From the NCBI GenBank assembly GCA_017400135.1, contig JAFPVJ010000003.1, positions 1 through 36,981 of the forward strand: a stretch of DNA of 36,981 bases. Reading direction: 5' to 3'. This DNA is from Bacteroidales bacterium. Its GTDB lineage: Bacteria; Bacteroidota; Bacteroidia; Bacteroidales; UBA932. Both the position numbers and the translations under genes were made by a program. The notes under the pieces are model-generated. The model saw only the letters and a program-made list of their open reading frames with translations. It was not told the DNA's origin and ran no database searches. This document shows positions 17,266 through 25,848 of the stretch, piece by piece. How positions within the stretch are numbered: the stretch's first letter is position 1; each line of letters starts with the position of its first letter.

Positions 17266-18612
17266 TTAAAGGGTTTCTCGTTTCAGTTTTTCGACATAGC
17301 TGTCGATGCGGGCCAGTTCGCGTGGGATGCGGATGTGCTGGGGACAGTGGGACTGGCAGGTACCGCAGTTGATGCAGTGGTCGGCCTGACGGATGGTCTC
17401 CACGGACTGGTCGTAGAGGGCCAGATAGCGGCGTTTCAGTTTCTTGAAATCCGACTGCTGTGCGCTCTCAGCCACGAGACCGGCGTTGACCGCCTTGTTG
17501 TAACTCAGGAAGATACCGGGGATGTCAATGCCGTACGGGCAGGGCATACAGTAGTTGCAGGCCGTGCAGTCCACCAGGGGGAAGTCGCGTATCATCTGCG
17601 CCATTTCCTCGAGCAGGGCGAGGTCTTCTTCGCCGAGAGGCTGGAAGTGGCAGTAGGTGTCGCAGTTGTCCGTGAGATGCTCCATATAGGTCATGCCGCT
17701 CAGGGCGGTCAGCACGCCGGGATAGGTCCCGCAGAAACGGAAGGCCCAGGAGGCGATGGACCGGGCGGGTTCGCGCTCCTTGAGCCGTACGGCGACGGGA
17801 TCCGGCACGGCGCTGAGGCGTCCGCCGAGCAGGGGCTCCATGATGACGACGGGGATGCCCCGCTTCTGCAGTTCGTCATAGAGGTAGCTGGCGTTGACGT
17901 TGCGCCCCGAGGCGTGGTTCCAGTCCACATAGTTCATCTGGATCTGGACGAAATCCCAGTGGTATTGCTCGTGGAGGGACACCATGTAGTCGAAGCCGGT
18001 GACCGGACCGTGGAAGGAGAAGCCCAGGTTGCGGATACGGCCGGCTTCGCGCTCTTTGACGAGGAAGTCGATCATCCCGTTGTCCAGGAAACGGCGCTTG
18101 AAGTCCGCTTCGCCGCTCAGGGAATGCAGGAGATAGTAGTCCATCCGGTCGGTCTGGAAGATCTCGAAAGAGCGGTGGTACATCCGGAGGGAGGCTTCGG
18201 CACTGTGCCCCTGGAAGTTGGACATCTTGGTCGCGATGAGATACTTCTCGCGCGGGTGGCGCAGGAGGGCCTTGGCCGTCGCTTCCTCGCTCTGTCCCTG
18301 GAGGTATACGGGCGACGTGTCGAAGTAGTTGACGCCATGGGCGATGGCGTAGTCGACCAGTTCGTTGACACTGTCCTGATCCACGATGTCCTGACCATTC
18401 TCATCCTTTTTCATCTGCCAGCGCATGCAGCCGTAGCCGAGGATGGAAACGCGGTCCCCGCTGTTGGGATTGGTCCGCATTTCCATGGCACCGGGGCCCT
18501 GGTCGGCCTTGGTGGTGCCGATGCCGGCCTTGGAGGCCGTTTCCTTGCAGGCGGCGATGCCCAGCGTGGCAGCCCCTGCGCCGGTCGCTTTCAAAAACGC
18601 TCTTCTATCCAT
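17266..18612 (-). CDS. Aldo/keto reductase with C-terminal ferredoxin clusters and Tat lipoprotein signal
   Basis: A 448-residue protein combining an aldo/keto reductase barrel with a two-cluster 4Fe-4S tail. The N-terminus has the twin-arginine motif in DRRAFLK and a lipobox-like IAAC (C22), which suggests export in folded form and lipid anchoring. Barrel residues matching the catalytic set are visible in NYFDTSPVY (Asp, Tyr), LIATKM (Lys) and YYLLHS (His). The tail carries CTACNYCMPCP (about 347-357) and CINCGTCQSHCP (about 413-424). The start overlaps the end of the polyferredoxin gene by eight bases, which argues that the two work together. Most reductases of this fold use NADPH, which is not available outside the cytoplasm. 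The substrate is unknown. Confidence 0.88.
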   Translation of the reverse strand: MDRRAFLKATGAGAATLGIAACKETASKAGIGTTKADQGPGAMEMRTNPNSGDRVSILGYGCMRWQMKKDENGQDIVDQDSVNELVDYAIAHGVNYFDTSPVYLQGQSEEATAKALLRHPREKYLIATKMSNFQGHSAEASLRMYHRSFEIFQTDRMDYYLLHSLSGEADFKRRFLDNGMIDFLVKEREAGRIRNLGFSFHGPVTGFDYMVSLHEQYHWDFVQIQMNYVDWNHASGRNVNASYLYDELQKRGIPVVIMEPLLGGRLSAVPDPVAVRLKEREPARSIASWAFRFCGTYPGVLTALSGMTYMEHLTDNCDTYCHFQPLGEEDLALLEEMAQMIRDFPLVDCTACNYCMPCPYGIDIPGIFLSYNKAVNAGLVAESAQQSDFKKLKRRYLALYDQSVETIRQADHCINCGTCQSHCPQHIRIPRELARIDSYVEKLKRETL

Positions 18613-20053
18613 GGATGTGTACTTTTAAACCGTTGACGTGGATCGCGCTGTAGGGGCGCGAAGGGCAGAGATATTCGCAGGCGCCGCAGCCGATGCACTT
18701 GTCCTCGATGACGGCGGGCGTGCGCAGTGAGTACGGGTCGTCCGGATTCTTGGGCACCATCGTGATGGCTTCCGCGGGGCAGTGTCGGGCGCAGTTGCCG
18801 CAGGAGACGCCGTCGCGGTTGACCACGCACAGGTCATAGTCGACCGTCGCCGTGCCGATCTTGATGGCGGTCTTTTCTTCGGGCGTGATGGGGAGGATGG
18901 CGCCGGCGGGGCAGACTTCGGAGCATTTGACGCATTCCGGGCGGCAGTAACCGTTTTCGTAGGAGGATTCGGGCTGCATCAGGTGGTCCAGGTCGGTGCT
19001 GGGGCGCAGGACGTGGTTAGGACAGTTCGCGACGCAGAGCTGGCAGGCGGTGCAGCGGCCGTAGAAATGCTTGAGGCTTTGGGCGCCGGCGGGAATGATG
19101 CGTTCGGTTCGCTCGGGTTTGCGTTTGGCCTCGAGGGCGGCGAGACCGCCGTCCAACTTTTGTTCTTGGGCTTTCAAGGTCACTGCGCCGAGCGTTATGC
19201 CGGAAGCAGCGAGGAAAGCGCGCTTGGAGGTATCGACTTCCTCCTTCTTTTCATCGGCCTCCTTCTGCGCCGCCAGTTCGCGGTTGCGGCGGGCGGCTTT
19301 CCAGGTGTTGCCCAGGCGGATTGCGCCGAACTTGCAGTCCTCGATACAGTCGAAGCAGTCCACGCAGCGGCTGTAGTCGATCTTCTGGTTTTCGCTGTCG
19401 ATGCAGGAGGCCTTGCATTGCTTCTCGCAGCCGTGGCAGTGCGTACATTTGTCCGCGTCGATGACCGGACCGAAGACGGTGAAACTGGAGAACAGCCCCA
19501 GCGTCGTGCCCACGGGACAGATCGTGTTGCAATAGGTCCGCCCGCCGAACCAGGCCAGCAGGCCCGTCGCGACCAGCGTCACGGCGGCGACGATGACGAC
19601 AGCCCAACCCATACCCAGCGGATGAAGGATGCTTTGTACGATCCTTCCCCAGGCGCTGTACGGAGCCAGGAGGGCAATGAGGACCTGCACGTCACAGATC
19701 ATGGCTGCAATGAACAAGGTCAGGATACCCGTGCGCCAGCGGTTGTCTTTCTTATAATGGAAACGACGCTTCTTGCCTTTGCGTCGGCTGCTGATCCAGT
19801 TGACGATGTCCTGCCAAATGCCCAGCGGGCAGATGACCGAGCAGTAGATGCGTCCCAGCAGCAGCGCCAGCGCGACGAGGCCCGTCAGGATGGCGATGTT
19901 GAGGAGCGTTGCGCTACCGATGACCCGCATCACGGAAGGCAGGAACTGGACGTCAGCCATCCATCCCCACCACCCCGCGCCGATTCCGGCCAGCAGCAAG
20001 GTCACCCCTGTGAAAAATATCGCCGCCAGGGCAATCCGTATCTTCCTAAGCAT
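18605..20053 (-). CDS. NapH-NapG-like membrane polyferredoxin (fused quinol dehydrogenase type)
   Basis: A 482-residue iron-sulfur membrane protein. The N-terminal half resembles NapH: four hydrophobic helices (about 7-27, 45-67, 108-130, 150-170), two CxxxCP motifs (CSVICP 71-76, CNTICP 175-180) and two 4Fe-4S sites (from C203 and C230). A second signal-like stretch follows at 275-296 (SKRAFLAASGITLGAVTL), resembling a Tat signal with Lys-Arg in place of Arg-Arg. The C-terminal half then resembles NapG, with cysteine groups from C334, C374, C418 and C453. In known systems NapH and NapG are separate and pass electrons from quinol to a periplasmic reductase. No napA is nearby; the overlapping aldo/keto reductase is the obvious partner. 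Function as a quinol-linked redox module is inference. Confidence 0.85.
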   Translation of the reverse strand: MLRKIRIALAAIFFTGVTLLLAGIGAGWWGWMADVQFLPSVMRVIGSATLLNIAILTGLVALALLLGRIYCSVICPLGIWQDIVNWISSRRKGKKRRFHYKKDNRWRTGILTLFIAAMICDVQVLIALLAPYSAWGRIVQSILHPLGMGWAVVIVAAVTLVATGLLAWFGGRTYCNTICPVGTTLGLFSSFTVFGPVIDADKCTHCHGCEKQCKASCIDSENQKIDYSRCVDCFDCIEDCKFGAIRLGNTWKAARRNRELAAQKEADEKKEEVDTSKRAFLAASGITLGAVTLKAQEQKLDGGLAALEAKRKPERTERIIPAGAQSLKHFYGRCTACQLCVANCPNHVLRPSTDLDHLMQPESSYENGYCRPECVKCSEVCPAGAILPITPEEKTAIKIGTATVDYDLCVVNRDGVSCGNCARHCPAEAITMVPKNPDDPYSLRTPAVIEDKCIGCGACEYLCPSRPYSAIHVNGLKVHIHG

Positions 20054-20103: not shown

Positions 20104-20745
20104 CTACCCCAGGATGACGAGTACGGGGGCGGGGTGGGAGAGGGTGAGGGTGATGCGGTCGGCGATGGCGCGGTTGAGGGAGGCCTTCCACCAGTTGTCG
20201 AAGACGACGCCGTCCGTAGGCCACTGCAGGCCCTCTGAATGGATCTGCAGAGTTGGATCCGGGGTGAACAAAGAGACCGGGCGGCCTTCTCCGACGTCGA
20301 GCGTCGCGCTGTCGCCCAGTGCCAAGGCGGTCGTGTAGTCAGAAACCAGGTCGACCATAACCCCCTTTGCAGAAAGGTCGAATTCCTTCTCGTATTCCAT
20401 CAGCAGCGACAGGTTGCCGAGGGTATGGTCTTCGCGGCGGCCGGTGGCGGCCAGGATATGGATCTCGGAAACCTCCGGGACCTGCTCCATCACATAACGG
20501 AAGGCCTTGGTCAGGTCGTTGCTTTCCTGCTCTTCAACCCGGACTACCGTCCCGGAGAAACGCTTCAGCGCCCGGCCGCAGACAGAATCCATGTCGCCGA
20601 TGACGACATCCGGCACCACCCCCCGTTTCTCCAGGGCCTGCAGGGCCCCGTCGCAGCAGACCACGATGTCCGCGCTCCGCAGCAGATACAGGGGATACTC
20701 CGTCCGGGGGAAGGATCCGTTGCAGACGATGGCGACCGATTTCAT
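20104..20745 (-). CDS. thiN: Thiamine diphosphokinase
   Basis: Transfers pyrophosphate from ATP to thiamine to make the cofactor thiamine diphosphate in the cytoplasm. The 213-residue protein has the family motifs VVCCDGAL (about 28-35), PDVVIGDMDSV (about 45-55), ESNDLTKA (about 73-80) and GRREDHTLGNL (about 101-111). The C-terminal beta-domain is less clear but present. It starts six bases after the LptG-Fmt gene and so is probably in the alaS operon. The 50 bases between its stop and the next minus-strand gene contain no convincing promoter or terminator. Confidence 0.93.
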   Translation of the reverse strand: MKSVAIVCNGSFPRTEYPLYLLRSADIVVCCDGALQALEKRGVVPDVVIGDMDSVCGRALKRFSGTVVRVEEQESNDLTKAFRYVMEQVPEVSEIHILAATGRREDHTLGNLSLLMEYEKEFDLSAKGVMVDLVSDYTTALALGDSATLDVGEGRPVSLFTPDPTLQIHSEGLQWPTDGVVFDNWWKASLNRAIADRITLTLSHPAPVLVILG

Positions 20746-20751
20746 ATAAAC

Positions 20752-23202
20752 TCAGGATTGAGACGTCGCGACACGTGTCTTGGCGATCTCCGCCTTCGAC
20801 GTGCCCGGGGTGCAATGGTATTTCGAAGCTTCGCGGAAGCCCAGCAGGAAGGCGCCCACGTCCATCCGCTTCTTGCCGGCGAGCTGGATGCTCTTCAGGG
20901 AGATGGCTCCGTCGACGGTACGCACCGCCAGGTAGCTCTTGCCGTCGGTCAGCAGGGTGCCCGGCGTCTCGGGACCGTCCCAGGCCATCTTCTCTGCCTC
21001 GAACACCTTCAGCTGCACGGGAGCGGAAGTGCCGTCCGTCAGCTCCGTGTAGGCCGTCGGATACGGGCTCAGGCCGCGGATTAGGTTGTAGATGTGGCGG
21101 GTCGTGTCGTTCCAGTCGATGTGGCAGAGCGCCCGGGTCAGCTTGGGAGCCGGACGGAGCGTCTCGGCGCCCTGGATGAAACTGCGCTGGATGCGCGTCT
21201 CCGCCGTACCGTCCAGGATGCCCTTGACGGTCTCCAGGACCAGGTCGGAACCCATTTCCATCAAAGCGTCGTGTACGTCGCCGGCCGTGTCGGTCTCGGC
21301 GATCTTGTGCTCCTGGCGCAGGATGATGCCGCCCGTGTCGATGTCCTTGTCGATCATGAAGGTCGTCACGCCGGTCATCGATTCGCCGTTGATGACGGCC
21401 CAGTTGATCGGAGCGGCGCCGCGGTACTGCGGCAGCAGGGCGGCGTGCAGGTTGAAGGTGCCCAGTTTGGGCATTTGCCAGACTTCCTCCGGCAGCATGC
21501 GGAAAGCAACGACTACGAACAGGTCGGCCTTCCAGGCTTTCAGTTGCTCGAGGAATTCGGGATCCTTCAGTTTCAGCGGCTGGAGGACGGGGATGCCGTG
21601 CTCGACCGCATATTTCTTGACGGCGGACTCGTTGACGCTCAAGCCCCGGCCGCTGGGCTTGTCGGCCACCGTGACGACTCCGACCACCTTGTGCCCGGTC
21701 TGGATGAGCTTGTCCAGGGGAGCGACGGCGAATTCGGGCGTGCCCATGTAGACGATGCGGCTCTTGCGGAACAGGCCCGCGACCTTGCGTTTGAACTTCC
21801 GCCACTGGTTCTTGAGCGTGTCGTTGCTGGAAAGGGACGCGTCGTTGACCGCCTTCCAGGTCAGATAAATGCCGATGGGCACCAGGACCGCCGTGGCGAT
21901 GAACGCACCCTCGGCACCGGTGATGGCGCCGTCCTTGGCCAGTTTGGAGCCGATCGTATCGACGATGTAGTACAGGACGAAGAAGAGGACGGAAATGATG
22001 GCCGGCACACCCAGGCCACCCCGTCTGACCAGCGCGCCGATCGGGGCGCCGATGAAGAACATGATGAAGCAGGCCAGCGCTTCGGCAAACTTCCGCAGGA
22101 ACTCCAGGTCCGCCCGCCGGAGGTAGAACATGTATTCGTAGGACTCCCGGCTGAAGGCGGTGATTTCCGAAACCATCTGGTTGGCGTTGTCGGATGCGTT
22201 GCGGTAGGCACGGGCCTCCCGGGTGATGTTGTCCCATTTCAGCATCCGGTCGGAGCGGTAATCCGTCTTCACCCGGTTGACGAAGGAGGTGTCCAGCTGC
22301 TGGTACTTGGAGAGGATGCCGTTGCTCATCAGGCGGTTGAACTGCTGCTCGCGGGTCTCCTGTTCGATCTGGCGGAGCGAATCCTTCTCGTGCTTGAGCT
22401 GAACCACGTTCATGCACTTGATCTGGTCGCTGTACTTGGTGGAGTCGGTCTTCTCGAAGGCGTAGTTCTCCAGGGAGATCAGCATCTCCTGCTTCTCGAA
22501 TTTGACCTTCTGCAGCTCCAGGGACGTATCCCTGTATTTCATGGAGTTGGTCTCCTGGTAATTGGAGCCGTTGTAGAGCGTGAAGGTGAGATACTCCTTG
22601 GTGTCGGACATCTTCAGCCGGGCGGAATCCGCCAGCATCAGGCCGACGTTGCCGCGGCCGCGGCTGTGGTCATAGACCATGATGCCGTGCATCATTCCCG
22701 TCTTGTCGTCCGTGGACTCCGTGCGCAGGACATAGCCCTCGATGCCGTCGTAGAAGGTGCCGGCCGGGATCTTGATCTCATCCTTGGTCTTGAGGATGTC
22801 GTCGTGGAGGGTGTAAATCTTGTTGTAGGAGTAGGGGACGAGGTTGTTGGACGAGAAGAAGGCGCCGACGGTGATCAGGGCCGAGGCGAAGATGATCGGC
22901 ATCATCACCCGCGTGACCGAGACGCCGGCGGCCTTGAGGGCCGTGAGTTCGCTGTGCTCGGCCAGCTGGCCCATCACCATCATAGAGGAGAGGAGGGTGG
23001 CGAGCGGCAGGGCGAGCGGCAGGATCAGGAAACTGCCCCACATCAGGAACTCCGCGACGACCTTCAGGCTCAGGCCCTTGCCGACGAGCTCGTCGATGTA
23101 TAGCCAGAGCGACTGCATCATCAGGATGAACAAGACGATCAGCAGGATCGCGAAGAACGGTCCTATGAACGACTTGAGTATGAAGCGGTCGATCCTTTTC
23201 AT
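20752..23202 (-). CDS. fmt: LptG/YjgQ-family permease fused to methionyl-tRNA formyltransferase
   Basis: A single 816-residue frame joins two normally separate proteins. Residues 1 to about 470 are an LptF/LptG-type permease of the lipopolysaccharide export system: one helix near 12-32, a helical block at 50-118, an extracytoplasmic domain and a C-terminal helix block (about 372-450). After a very basic linker (WRKFKRKVAGLFRKS, 467-481), residues 482-816 are a complete methionyl-tRNA formyltransferase. It opens RIVYMGTPEFAV and has catalytic residues N584 and H586 in FNLHAALLPQYRGAAPIN and D622 in DIDTGG; the C-terminal tRNA-binding domain ends near KKRMDVGAFLLGF. No ATG or GTG start lies at the junction. 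The linker is positively charged and follows the last helix, so the enzyme would face the cytoplasm. A sequencing or assembly indel remains possible. Confidence 0.9.
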   Translation of the reverse strand: MKRIDRFILKSFIGPFFAILLIVLFILMMQSLWLYIDELVGKGLSLKVVAEFLMWGSFLILPLALPLATLLSSMMVMGQLAEHSELTALKAAGVSVTRVMMPIIFASALITVGAFFSSNNLVPYSYNKIYTLHDDILKTKDEIKIPAGTFYDGIEGYVLRTESTDDKTGMMHGIMVYDHSRGRGNVGLMLADSARLKMSDTKEYLTFTLYNGSNYQETNSMKYRDTSLELQKVKFEKQEMLISLENYAFEKTDSTKYSDQIKCMNVVQLKHEKDSLRQIEQETREQQFNRLMSNGILSKYQQLDTSFVNRVKTDYRSDRMLKWDNITREARAYRNASDNANQMVSEITAFSRESYEYMFYLRRADLEFLRKFAEALACFIMFFIGAPIGALVRRGGLGVPAIISVLFFVLYYIVDTIGSKLAKDGAITGAEGAFIATAVLVPIGIYLTWKAVNDASLSSNDTLKNQWRKFKRKVAGLFRKSRIVYMGTPEFAVAPLDKLIQTGHKVVGVVTVADKPSGRGLSVNESAVKKYAVEHGIPVLQPLKLKDPEFLEQLKAWKADLFVVVAFRMLPEEVWQMPKLGTFNLHAALLPQYRGAAPINWAVINGESMTGVTTFMIDKDIDTGGIILRQEHKIAETDTAGDVHDALMEMGSDLVLETVKGILDGTAETRIQRSFIQGAETLRPAPKLTRALCHIDWNDTTRHIYNLIRGLSPYPTAYTELTDGTSAPVQLKVFEAEKMAWDGPETPGTLLTDGKSYLAVRTVDGAISLKSIQLAGKKRMDVGAFLLGFREASKYHCTPGTSKAEIAKTRVATSQS

Positions 23203-23223: not shown

Positions 23224-25848
23224 TTAGCAGGTGGCGGCGGCCATGAGCGCTTCCATCGCCTGGCGAAGGCCGTTTACGTCCTTGCCGCCGGCAGAGGCGA
23301 GGCCCGGCTGGCCGCCACCGCCGCCCTGGATGCACTTGGCGGCTTCGCGGATGTCCTTGCCGGCGTTCTTGCCCGCGGCGACGAGGTCCTGGGAATACAT
23401 CAGCAGCAGCTGGGGCTTGCCTTCATATTCGAAGGCGGCGCAGACGGCCAGGTTTTGGGCCTGGGTCTGAACCTGCGCGGCGGAGGCCCGCAGCATGGCG
23501 GGCTCGACGCTCATCGTCAGGACGGCGATCCGCCGGCCGCCGATCTCCTGGGCGCCTTCTTCGATACGGCGCGCCATTTCGGCAGCTTTCTGCCTGGCCA
23601 GCTCTTCCGCCTGCTTCTTGTACGTGGAATTCTCGGAAACCATCTTCTGGATGGCGCCAGCGAGGTCGGGGACGTTGTTGAAGAAGCTGCGGGCGGTCTT
23701 GAGCATCTCGGCCATTCCGTTCACCAGGGCTTCTGCCTCCTCGCCGGTCACGGCCTCGATGCGCCGGATGCCGGCCGCGATGGCCGCCTCGCTGACGATG
23801 CGGAAGTAACCGATGTTGCCGGTCGCGCCGGTGTGGCAGCCGCCGCAGAGCTCGACGCTGTCGCCGAACTTGACGACGCGGACGACATCACCGTATTTCT
23901 CGCCGAACAGGGCCATCGCTCCCATGGCGCGGGCCTCGTCCATCGAGGCGTCGCGTTTCTCGCGCAGCGGATGGTTCGCCCGGATCAGGGCGTTGACCCG
24001 GCGCTCGACCTGGGCGATCTGCTCGTCGGAGAGCTTCTCGAAGTGGGAGAAGTCGAAACGGAAGTATTTGTCGCAGACGAAGGAACCCTTCTGCTCCACG
24101 TGGGTGCCGAGGATCTCGCGCAGGGCCTGGTGAAGCAGGTGGGTGCAGCTGTGGTTGTTGGCGATCTTCTGGCGGCGCGCGGCGTCGACGACCAGGGTGA
24201 AACGCCCGGTGCAGTCGGCGGGAATGCGCTCGGCCAGGTGGATAGTCAGGTCGTTCTCCTTGATGGTGTTGAGGATGGCGATCTTCTCGCCGTCCTCGGC
24301 GACGATGTAGCCGGTATCGCCGACTTCGCCGCCCATTTCGCCGTAGAACGGGGTGCGGTCGAAGACCAGCTGGAGCATCTCCTTGTTCTTCTGCTTGACG
24401 GTCCGCTGCTTGAGCAGGACCGCGCCTTCGACGGTCGTGGTGTCGTAGCCTGCGAACTCCACTTCGCCCGCGTGGTACTCGGTCCAGTCGCCGAATTCGT
24501 TGGCGGTGGCGTTGCGGGCGCGCTCCTTCTGCTTCTGCAGTTCGACGTTGAAGCCGTCCAGGTCCACGGTGAAGCCGTGCTCGGCGGCGATCAGCTGCGT
24601 CAGGTCGATGGGGAAGCCGTAGGTGTCATAGAGTTTGAAGGCATCTTCGCCCGCGATGACCTTGGTGGCCTTGGACTTCTCCATGTATTCGTCCATCAGG
24701 GAGATGCCGCGGTCGAGGGTCTTGAGGAAAGCCATTTCTTCCTCGCGGATGACGCTTTCGATGAGGCGCTGCTGGGCGACGAGCTCGGGATAGGCTTCGC
24801 CCATGTCGCTGATCAGCTGAGGGACCAGCCGGCAGAGGAAAGGCTCGCTGAAACCGAGGAAGGTGTAGCCGTAGCGTACGGCACGGCGCAGGATCCGGCG
24901 GATGACGTATCCGGCCTTGACGTTGCTGGGCAGCTGTCCGTCGGCGATGGAGAAGGAGATGGTGCGGACGTGGTCGGCGATGACGCGCATCGCGACGTCG
25001 GTGTCGGCGCTCTCGCGGTACTTGTGGCCGGAAAGCTCCTCGATCCGGGCGATCATGCCCGTGAAGACGTCGGAATCATAATTGGAATTCTTGCCCTGCA
25101 GGACGGCGCAAAGGCGCTCGAAACCCATACCGGTGTCGATGTTCTTGGCCGGAAGCGGCTCCAGGTGGCCGTCCGCCTTGCGGTTGAACTGCATGAAGAC
25201 GAGGTTCCAGATCTCGATGACGTGGGGGTCGCTCTGGTTGACCAGGTCGCGTCCCGGGATGCCGCTGGCCGCCTTTTCCTCGGCGGTGCGGATGTCGATG
25301 TGGATCTCGGAGCTCGGGCCGCAGGGACCGGTGTCACCCATTTCCCAGAAGTTGTCGTGCTTGTTGCCGAGGATGACGCGGTCGGCGGGCAGGTGCTTCA
25401 GCCAGGCGTCGCGCGCTTCGGTGTCCAGGGAGGTGCCATCCTCCTCGCTGCCCTCGAAAACGGTCGCGTAGAGGAGGCTGGGATCGATGCCGTAGACCTC
25501 GGTCAGGAGTTCCCAGGCCCAGTCGATGGCTTCCTTCTTGAAATAGTCTCCGAAGCTCCAGTTGCCGAGCATCTCGAACATCGTATGGTGGTAGGTGTCG
25601 TGTCCGACTTCCTCGAGATCGTTGTGCTTTCCGCTGACGCGCAGGCATTTCTGCGAATCGGTCGCCCGCTTGAACTTCGGCGCGGCGTTGCCCAGGAAAA
25701 TGTCCTTGAACTGGTTCATGCCGGCGTTGGTAAACATGAGCGTGGGGTCGTTCTTGACCACCATGGGCGCAGAGGGCACGACCGTGTGTCCCTTGGAAGC
25801 GAAGAAATCCAGGAATTTCTGTCTTATTTCTTTTGATGTCATAGTCAT
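23224..25848 (-). CDS. alaS: Alanyl-tRNA synthetase
   Basis: Charges tRNA-Ala with alanine and edits mischarged Ser or Gly. The 874-residue protein has the class II catalytic core at the N-terminus ([47 protein letters not shown]). The editing-domain zinc ligands follow (HSCTHLLH near 563 and CGGCH near 666). The glycine-rich C-Ala domain ends the protein ([16 protein letters not shown]). Length matches the family. It heads a minus-strand group with lptG-fmt 21 bases downstream. The start could be 25848 or the second ATG two codons later. Confidence 0.97.

Follow-up and report, generated by a model that had tools for sequence, protein, structure and literature searches.

We found that a permease of the LptF/LptG family and a methionyl-tRNA formyltransferase (Fmt) are encoded as one gene in a Bacteroidales genome, and comparison with relatives confirmed that this fusion is real and conserved among uncultured bacteria of the gut. 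The gene lies on the minus strand at 20752..23202 of the window, by which we mean the whole stretch of 36,981 nucleotides that was analysed. Most likely it makes a single chain, in which a working Fmt would be tethered to a working LptF; we put the probability of this reading at about three in four. A frame change at a gene overlap would have joined the permease gene to fmt. In LPS export the permease half would then act together with LptB and a partner LptG, and the Fmt half would hang on the short basic cytoplasmic tail of the permease and formylate initiator Met-tRNA as usual, but anchored to the inner membrane and produced in a 1:1 ratio with the permease. The simplest explanation for its retention is that the two genes were translationally coupled beforehand and that, in cases such as the window gene, fmt has lost its separate start; no specific benefit of the tether would be needed, though one may exist.

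A permease half and a formyltransferase half in one frame

The open reading frame runs from 23202 to 20752, starts with ATG, and encodes 816 amino acids before its stop codon, with no interruption. A sequence-only reading of this DNA had described a complete permease followed by a complete Fmt in this frame, and the open reading frame together with Pfam and NCBIfam profiles confirmed it. The neighbors lie on the same strand. Directly upstream is alaS (23224..25848; PF01411), whose end is 21 bases from the start of the fusion, and directly downstream is a thiamine pyrophosphokinase gene (20104..20745; PF04263). A scan for sigma-70 sites found 0 against 1.2 expected, and a scan for terminator-like sites found 9 against 4.9 expected. 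At 17266-20053, 3′ of the operon, lie two genes that overlap at their ends, one for an iron-sulfur membrane-type protein and the other for an aldo/keto reductase with 4Fe-4S motifs. The genome itself (G000) is a draft of 2.31 Mb in 28 contigs, 88.6% complete.

The permease half comprises residues 1-450 (21853..23202, minus strand). Residues 6-450 match the LptF_LptG profile (PF03739) over all of its 353 positions (E 3.9e-68), scoring 230.5 bits against a gathering score of 27.9. The sequence-only reading had labeled this half LptG type, but the profiles favor the other member: the LptF model (TIGR04407, LptF_YjgP) gives 161.4 bits and the LptG model (TIGR04408) 109.9 bits, both below their equivalog cut-offs of 230 and 240. 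Among 19 members, the best E-value was likewise lower with the LptF model. The only other LptF/LptG-family member found in the genome, a protein of 362 aa (locus L192, 1489-2577, on contig C19), has the opposite preference, 163.5 bits with LptG and 122.6 with LptF, again with both under cut-off. Since the fused half scores higher as LptF and the other member higher as LptG, the fused half is LptF-like and is more likely LptF than LptG. Sequence-profile searches matched it to solved LptF and LptG chains. A structure model predicts long helices, a beta-rich domain, and then further long helices in this half, but it is shallow (19 sequences, pTM 0.45) and gives no reliable arrangement of the domains. 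The second permease gene lies four bases from a gene that, from its sequence, reads as tgt, so both permease genes adjoin tRNA-related genes.

Residues 480-816 (20755..21765, minus strand) make up a complete Fmt, with Formyl_trans_N at residues 482-658 and Formyl_trans_C at 687-789 (Pfam). The protein scores 242.3 bits with the fmt equivalog model TIGR00460 (NCBIfam), above its cut-off of 201.5, and 145.4 bits with the ArnA model, below its cut-off of 777. R519 is present, as are N584, H586, and D622, which we take to be the catalytic Asn, His, and Asp of Fmt. All three stand where the sequence-only reading had placed them, and they are invariant in 91/91 fused proteins. When the modeled structure was searched with Foldseek, the 11 best rows were Fmt structures at 31 to 37% identity; the 50 rows listed were all formyltransferase-type folds, and no LptF or LptG was among the matches listed. 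A second intact fmt elsewhere in the genome would have spoken against the fusion, but a search for formyltransferase domains in the 88.6% complete draft gave the fusion as its one Fmt match. Deformylase (two matches) and FolD are encoded in the genome as well; the second deformylase match (G000:C19:74329-74763) has an in-frame TGA inside. Given an invariant active site, an Fmt-like fold, and the presence of deformylase and FolD, the Fmt half probably carries out formylation.

The same domain search touched on other formyltransferases. With PF00551, a PurN-type protein was not found in the window's draft genome, and matches of PurN size (about 190 to 220 aa) occur in only part of the genomes of the genus, so purine synthesis may differ across it. 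Part of the genus also carries a further formyltransferase-domain protein of about 290 to 330 aa (for example, G551:C3:315205-315735), possibly PurU or a sugar formyltransferase.

Occurrence of the fused gene among relatives

A search of 149 genomes of the family, the window's own included, returned full-length fused matches in many genera. We examined 109 of them at the locus, and 108 had both genes. Fifty of these 108 classified genomes, the window's among them, carry the fusion, under nine genus codes, and 58 have split genes; in two of the fused cases (G102 and G067) the contig breaks off beyond the join. All classified genomes are fused in g1 (11/11), g6 (10/10), g15 (11/11), g16 (11/11), g17 (3/3), g3 (1/1), and g5 (1/1), as are 1/2 in g2 and 1/3 in g23. 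For the other 40 of the 149, none of the matches listed spans both halves. The sequence-only reading had proposed looking for the same architecture in relatives, with separate genes in close ones counting against it. The window's genus is fused in 11/11 classified genomes. Separate permease and fmt genes do occur in other genera, where they indicate the ancestral state and do not refute the fusion.

Within the genus, an fmt above the cut-off was found in 140 of 151 genomes. In 136 of the 140 it lies in a frame of at least 791 codons, the size of the fusion, a count that is based on frame length, with the permease half not individually confirmed; of the remaining four, three share a frame with permease sequence and one is truncated at the edge of its contig. 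Five over-cut-off matches lie in frames shorter than 791 codons, in G560, G623, G632, and G672. The one in G632 is truncated at the contig start and shares a frame with permease sequence; in G560 part of the permease is masked, but a single frame crosses the join; that on contig C38 of G672, also truncated at the contig start, is in frame with the permease end; and in G623 the fmt itself is cut. The last, on contig C20 of G672, is an additional free fmt of about 50% identity with no permease match beside it, and that contig is most likely a contaminant. The 11 of 151 genomes with no over-cut-off fmt were taken to reflect draft incompleteness; one of them (G581) was looked at in part.

Named public loci gave a similar picture. 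Of 588 confirmed loci, the best 80 were analysed: 45 are fused, 12 have the two genes without a shared open frame, and in 23 fmt alone was matched within the examined stretch. One of the 12 (L137) looks like a fusion with an early in-frame stop in the permease and an open Fmt frame. Among the close fused matches is L117, at 60% identity, from a record named Candidatus Cryptobacteroides. Where the flank is long enough, alaS lies directly 5′ of the fusion in 41/41 fused named loci and has the same upstream place in 6/11 split ones. The thiamine pyrophosphokinase gene is directly 3′ in 20/45 fused loci with flank, under a rule that disallowed overlap, and in several further ones it starts just inside the end of fmt.

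We also searched 393 genomes of the order, 6 of them from this family, and 395 of the phylum, of which only the window's own is from the family. A fused match would be expected near the top of such match lists, and among the matches listed no fusion in one open frame came from outside the family. The match in G162, from another family, spans both halves with two stops and is two separate open reading frames. In four Rikenellaceae/Alistipes metagenome-assembled genomes (MAGs; L155-L158), permease and fmt are adjacent and in one frame with a stop between them, and alaS is not upstream. Since the frame is retained in many MAGs, neither chance nor a local indel accounts for the fusion, and both were ruled out.

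The linker and the form in which Fmt is made

The sequence-only reading had placed the join near residue 481, in a strongly basic linker. The position was close, and we refined it: the linker proper is residues 451-479 (21766..21852, minus strand), with a predicted helix at 460-478, and Fmt begins at about 480-482. The linker is indeed basic, with a median net charge of +4 in 91 fused proteins, but the permease tails of unfused relatives look alike, at +3 (46 of 58 split tails were measurable, with charge taken from a slightly different point than in the fused linkers). Its basic character is therefore not special to the fusion. The linker is also translated and under purifying selection, as judged from substitution rates and the near absence of length change in close relatives. 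In 28 independent pairs of relatives that are 76 to 95% identical (drawn from 91 of the 95 fused loci, the others being cut or containing N), dN/dS was 0.108 for the permease, 0.157 for the linker, and 0.102 for Fmt, and the linker alignment had one gapped codon column beside 957 codons compared.

The C-terminal tail of LptF/LptG-family permeases is cytoplasmic, as established by the LptB2FG structure, and the modeled helices flanking the beta domain agree with that topology. Fmt is thus probably cytoplasmic and tethered to the inner membrane, which by this reasoning supports the placement proposed in the sequence-only reading. Less can be said for its remark that nascent formyl-Met proteins are made there. 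The enzyme modifies Met-tRNA ahead of initiation, so no need for a membrane location follows.

A free Fmt could still be made, by internal initiation or by proteolysis of the linker, and the fusion would then serve co-expression or yield tethered and free forms side by side. We consider this unlikely overall. An in-frame ATG occurs at codons -25 to -3 before the YMGTPEF core of Fmt in 20/50 fused genes of the family and in 35/45 named fused loci, most of which are close to the window's genus. Start codons recur at particular positions: ATG at -10 in 15/45 and at -8 in 9/45 named loci, ATG at -10 in 5/11 g1 genomes and at -23 in 6/10 g6 genomes, and GTG at -15 in 4/11 g16 and at -4 in 3/3 g17 genomes. 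Moreover, basic linkers can be protease-sensitive. Because of these ATG codons, a free Fmt may also be started in many relatives, the window gene not among them. There, the sequence-only reading was borne out in finding no ATG or GTG start at the join, and TTG is absent from codons -25 to -3 as well. All three start codons are missing from this stretch in 19/50 family genes, the window's included, and in 7/45 named loci (ATG alone is missing in 30/50 and 10/45), which argues against internal starts as a general explanation. ATG is also frequent at -25 (11/45 named loci), far from the likely Fmt start, so an ATG in the linker need not mean initiation. Finally, the purifying selection on the linker and its nearly fixed length among close relatives speak for the single chain.

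Origin, meaning, and known systems

In split relatives, permease and fmt lie head to tail in the same order as in the fusion. By the start nearest the Fmt core, the two genes overlap in 38 of 58 split pairs and lie within 74 nt of each other in 57 of 58; the exception, G006, has them 1,228 nt apart. The two frames differ in 54 of the 58 pairs and agree in four. Translationally coupled genes typically overlap by a short stretch (PMC10666635). Given these overlaps and short distances, a gene pair with coupled translation was probably the source of the fusion.

In our main tree of 40 chosen rows, rooted on g11 for the count of gains and losses, the fused rows fall into clades A (g1, g17), B (g2, g6), and C (g3, g5, g15, g16). 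Split groups separate these three clades, and no fewer than three changes are needed. A single clade of all fused rows was rejected (p 0.0025), which suggests repeated fusion. A+B (p 0.0007) and B+C (p 0.0001) were also rejected, and A+C held together was not (p 0.65) and scores slightly better; the clades were named after the tree had been seen, which weakens these AU values. In a FastTree of 101 rows, 7 of 108 having been dropped as too short, G059 (g23) is fused and stands apart from the other fused rows, again with a minimum of three changes. If gains are preferred to losses, these trees point to two or more fusions within the 40-row set, with G059 in addition.

The trees give no direction and do not distinguish gain from loss, so the history could instead be one old fusion followed by several splits, which would also suit the unrejected A+C. 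We regard this as rather unlikely. On the g11-rooted tree, three gains are enough, whereas the alternative takes one gain and four losses. The split groups mostly have out-of-frame overlaps or short gaps, so that every split would have required its own change of frame, stop codon, and start codon. Between the clades, the linkers also differ in length and sequence.

Repeated fusion could further be taken as a sign that the tether has a function, with Fmt held at LptB2FG so that initiator formylation, and through it translation, follows the state of LPS export, or in order to favor initiation close to the membrane. Consistent with this, no clear reversal was seen within the genus, and the alaS gene upstream in all 41 fused named loci with enough flank places the permease between two tRNA-related genes. 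However, gene adjacency and overlap already explain repeated fusion, and an enzyme that acts before initiation has no obvious use for a membrane location; we therefore think a functional tether quite improbable, and regulation that ties translation to LPS export is conceivable but finds no support here. It is similarly doubtful, if slightly less so, that the only formyltransferase has become an obligate part of the LPS exporter, coupling export capacity and initiation physically and stoichiometrically, and that this evolved more than once. An assembly or binning artefact, in which a lost stop or base joined two genes of a draft in 28 contigs, has a negligible chance and was rejected on the evidence of relatives, since the fusion recurs in 50/108 family genomes and 45 of the best 80 named loci from many projects and purifying selection runs through the join.

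Our preferred reading remains the single chain from an overlapping gene pair. If the chain is intact, widespread gut and rumen bacteria would carry out initiator-tRNA formylation, a near-universal bacterial step, at the membrane, with the enzyme attached to a subunit of the LPS exporter. Fmt would then be shown to tolerate permanent tethering, the ratio of two important functions would be fixed, and nature would have provided a test of coupling between envelope assembly and translation initiation. The gene would also be a clear example of how coupled genes that overlap can merge, which in this family probably happened on more than one occasion. By title and the start of the abstract, we found no description of the fusion in the literature, although domain-architecture databases may list it. 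Both of its component families are known.

The known systems each share part of this architecture. Known Fmt (TIGR00460; E. coli 1FMT and 2FMT) is a free cytosolic protein with the same two domains and the same catalytic Asn, His, and Asp; the fused Fmt differs in following a membrane permease with no start of its own. The LptB2FG permeases LptF and LptG (PF03739; 6MIT and 5X5Y) share the full-length profile match and, as here, occur with a second family member in the genome. The fused permease differs from them in carrying a C-terminal Fmt, in scoring below the LptF and LptG equivalog cut-offs, and in exceeding the 353 positions of the profile by about 90 residues, counted up to the linker. 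ArnA is likewise a fusion protein and has a formyltransferase domain from this superfamily, but it formylates a sugar nucleotide and its partner is an oxidase domain. The lptF-fmt pairs of related Bacteroidales genera have the same two genes in the same order, often overlapping, and differ from the fusion in being two open frames, each with its own start and stop.
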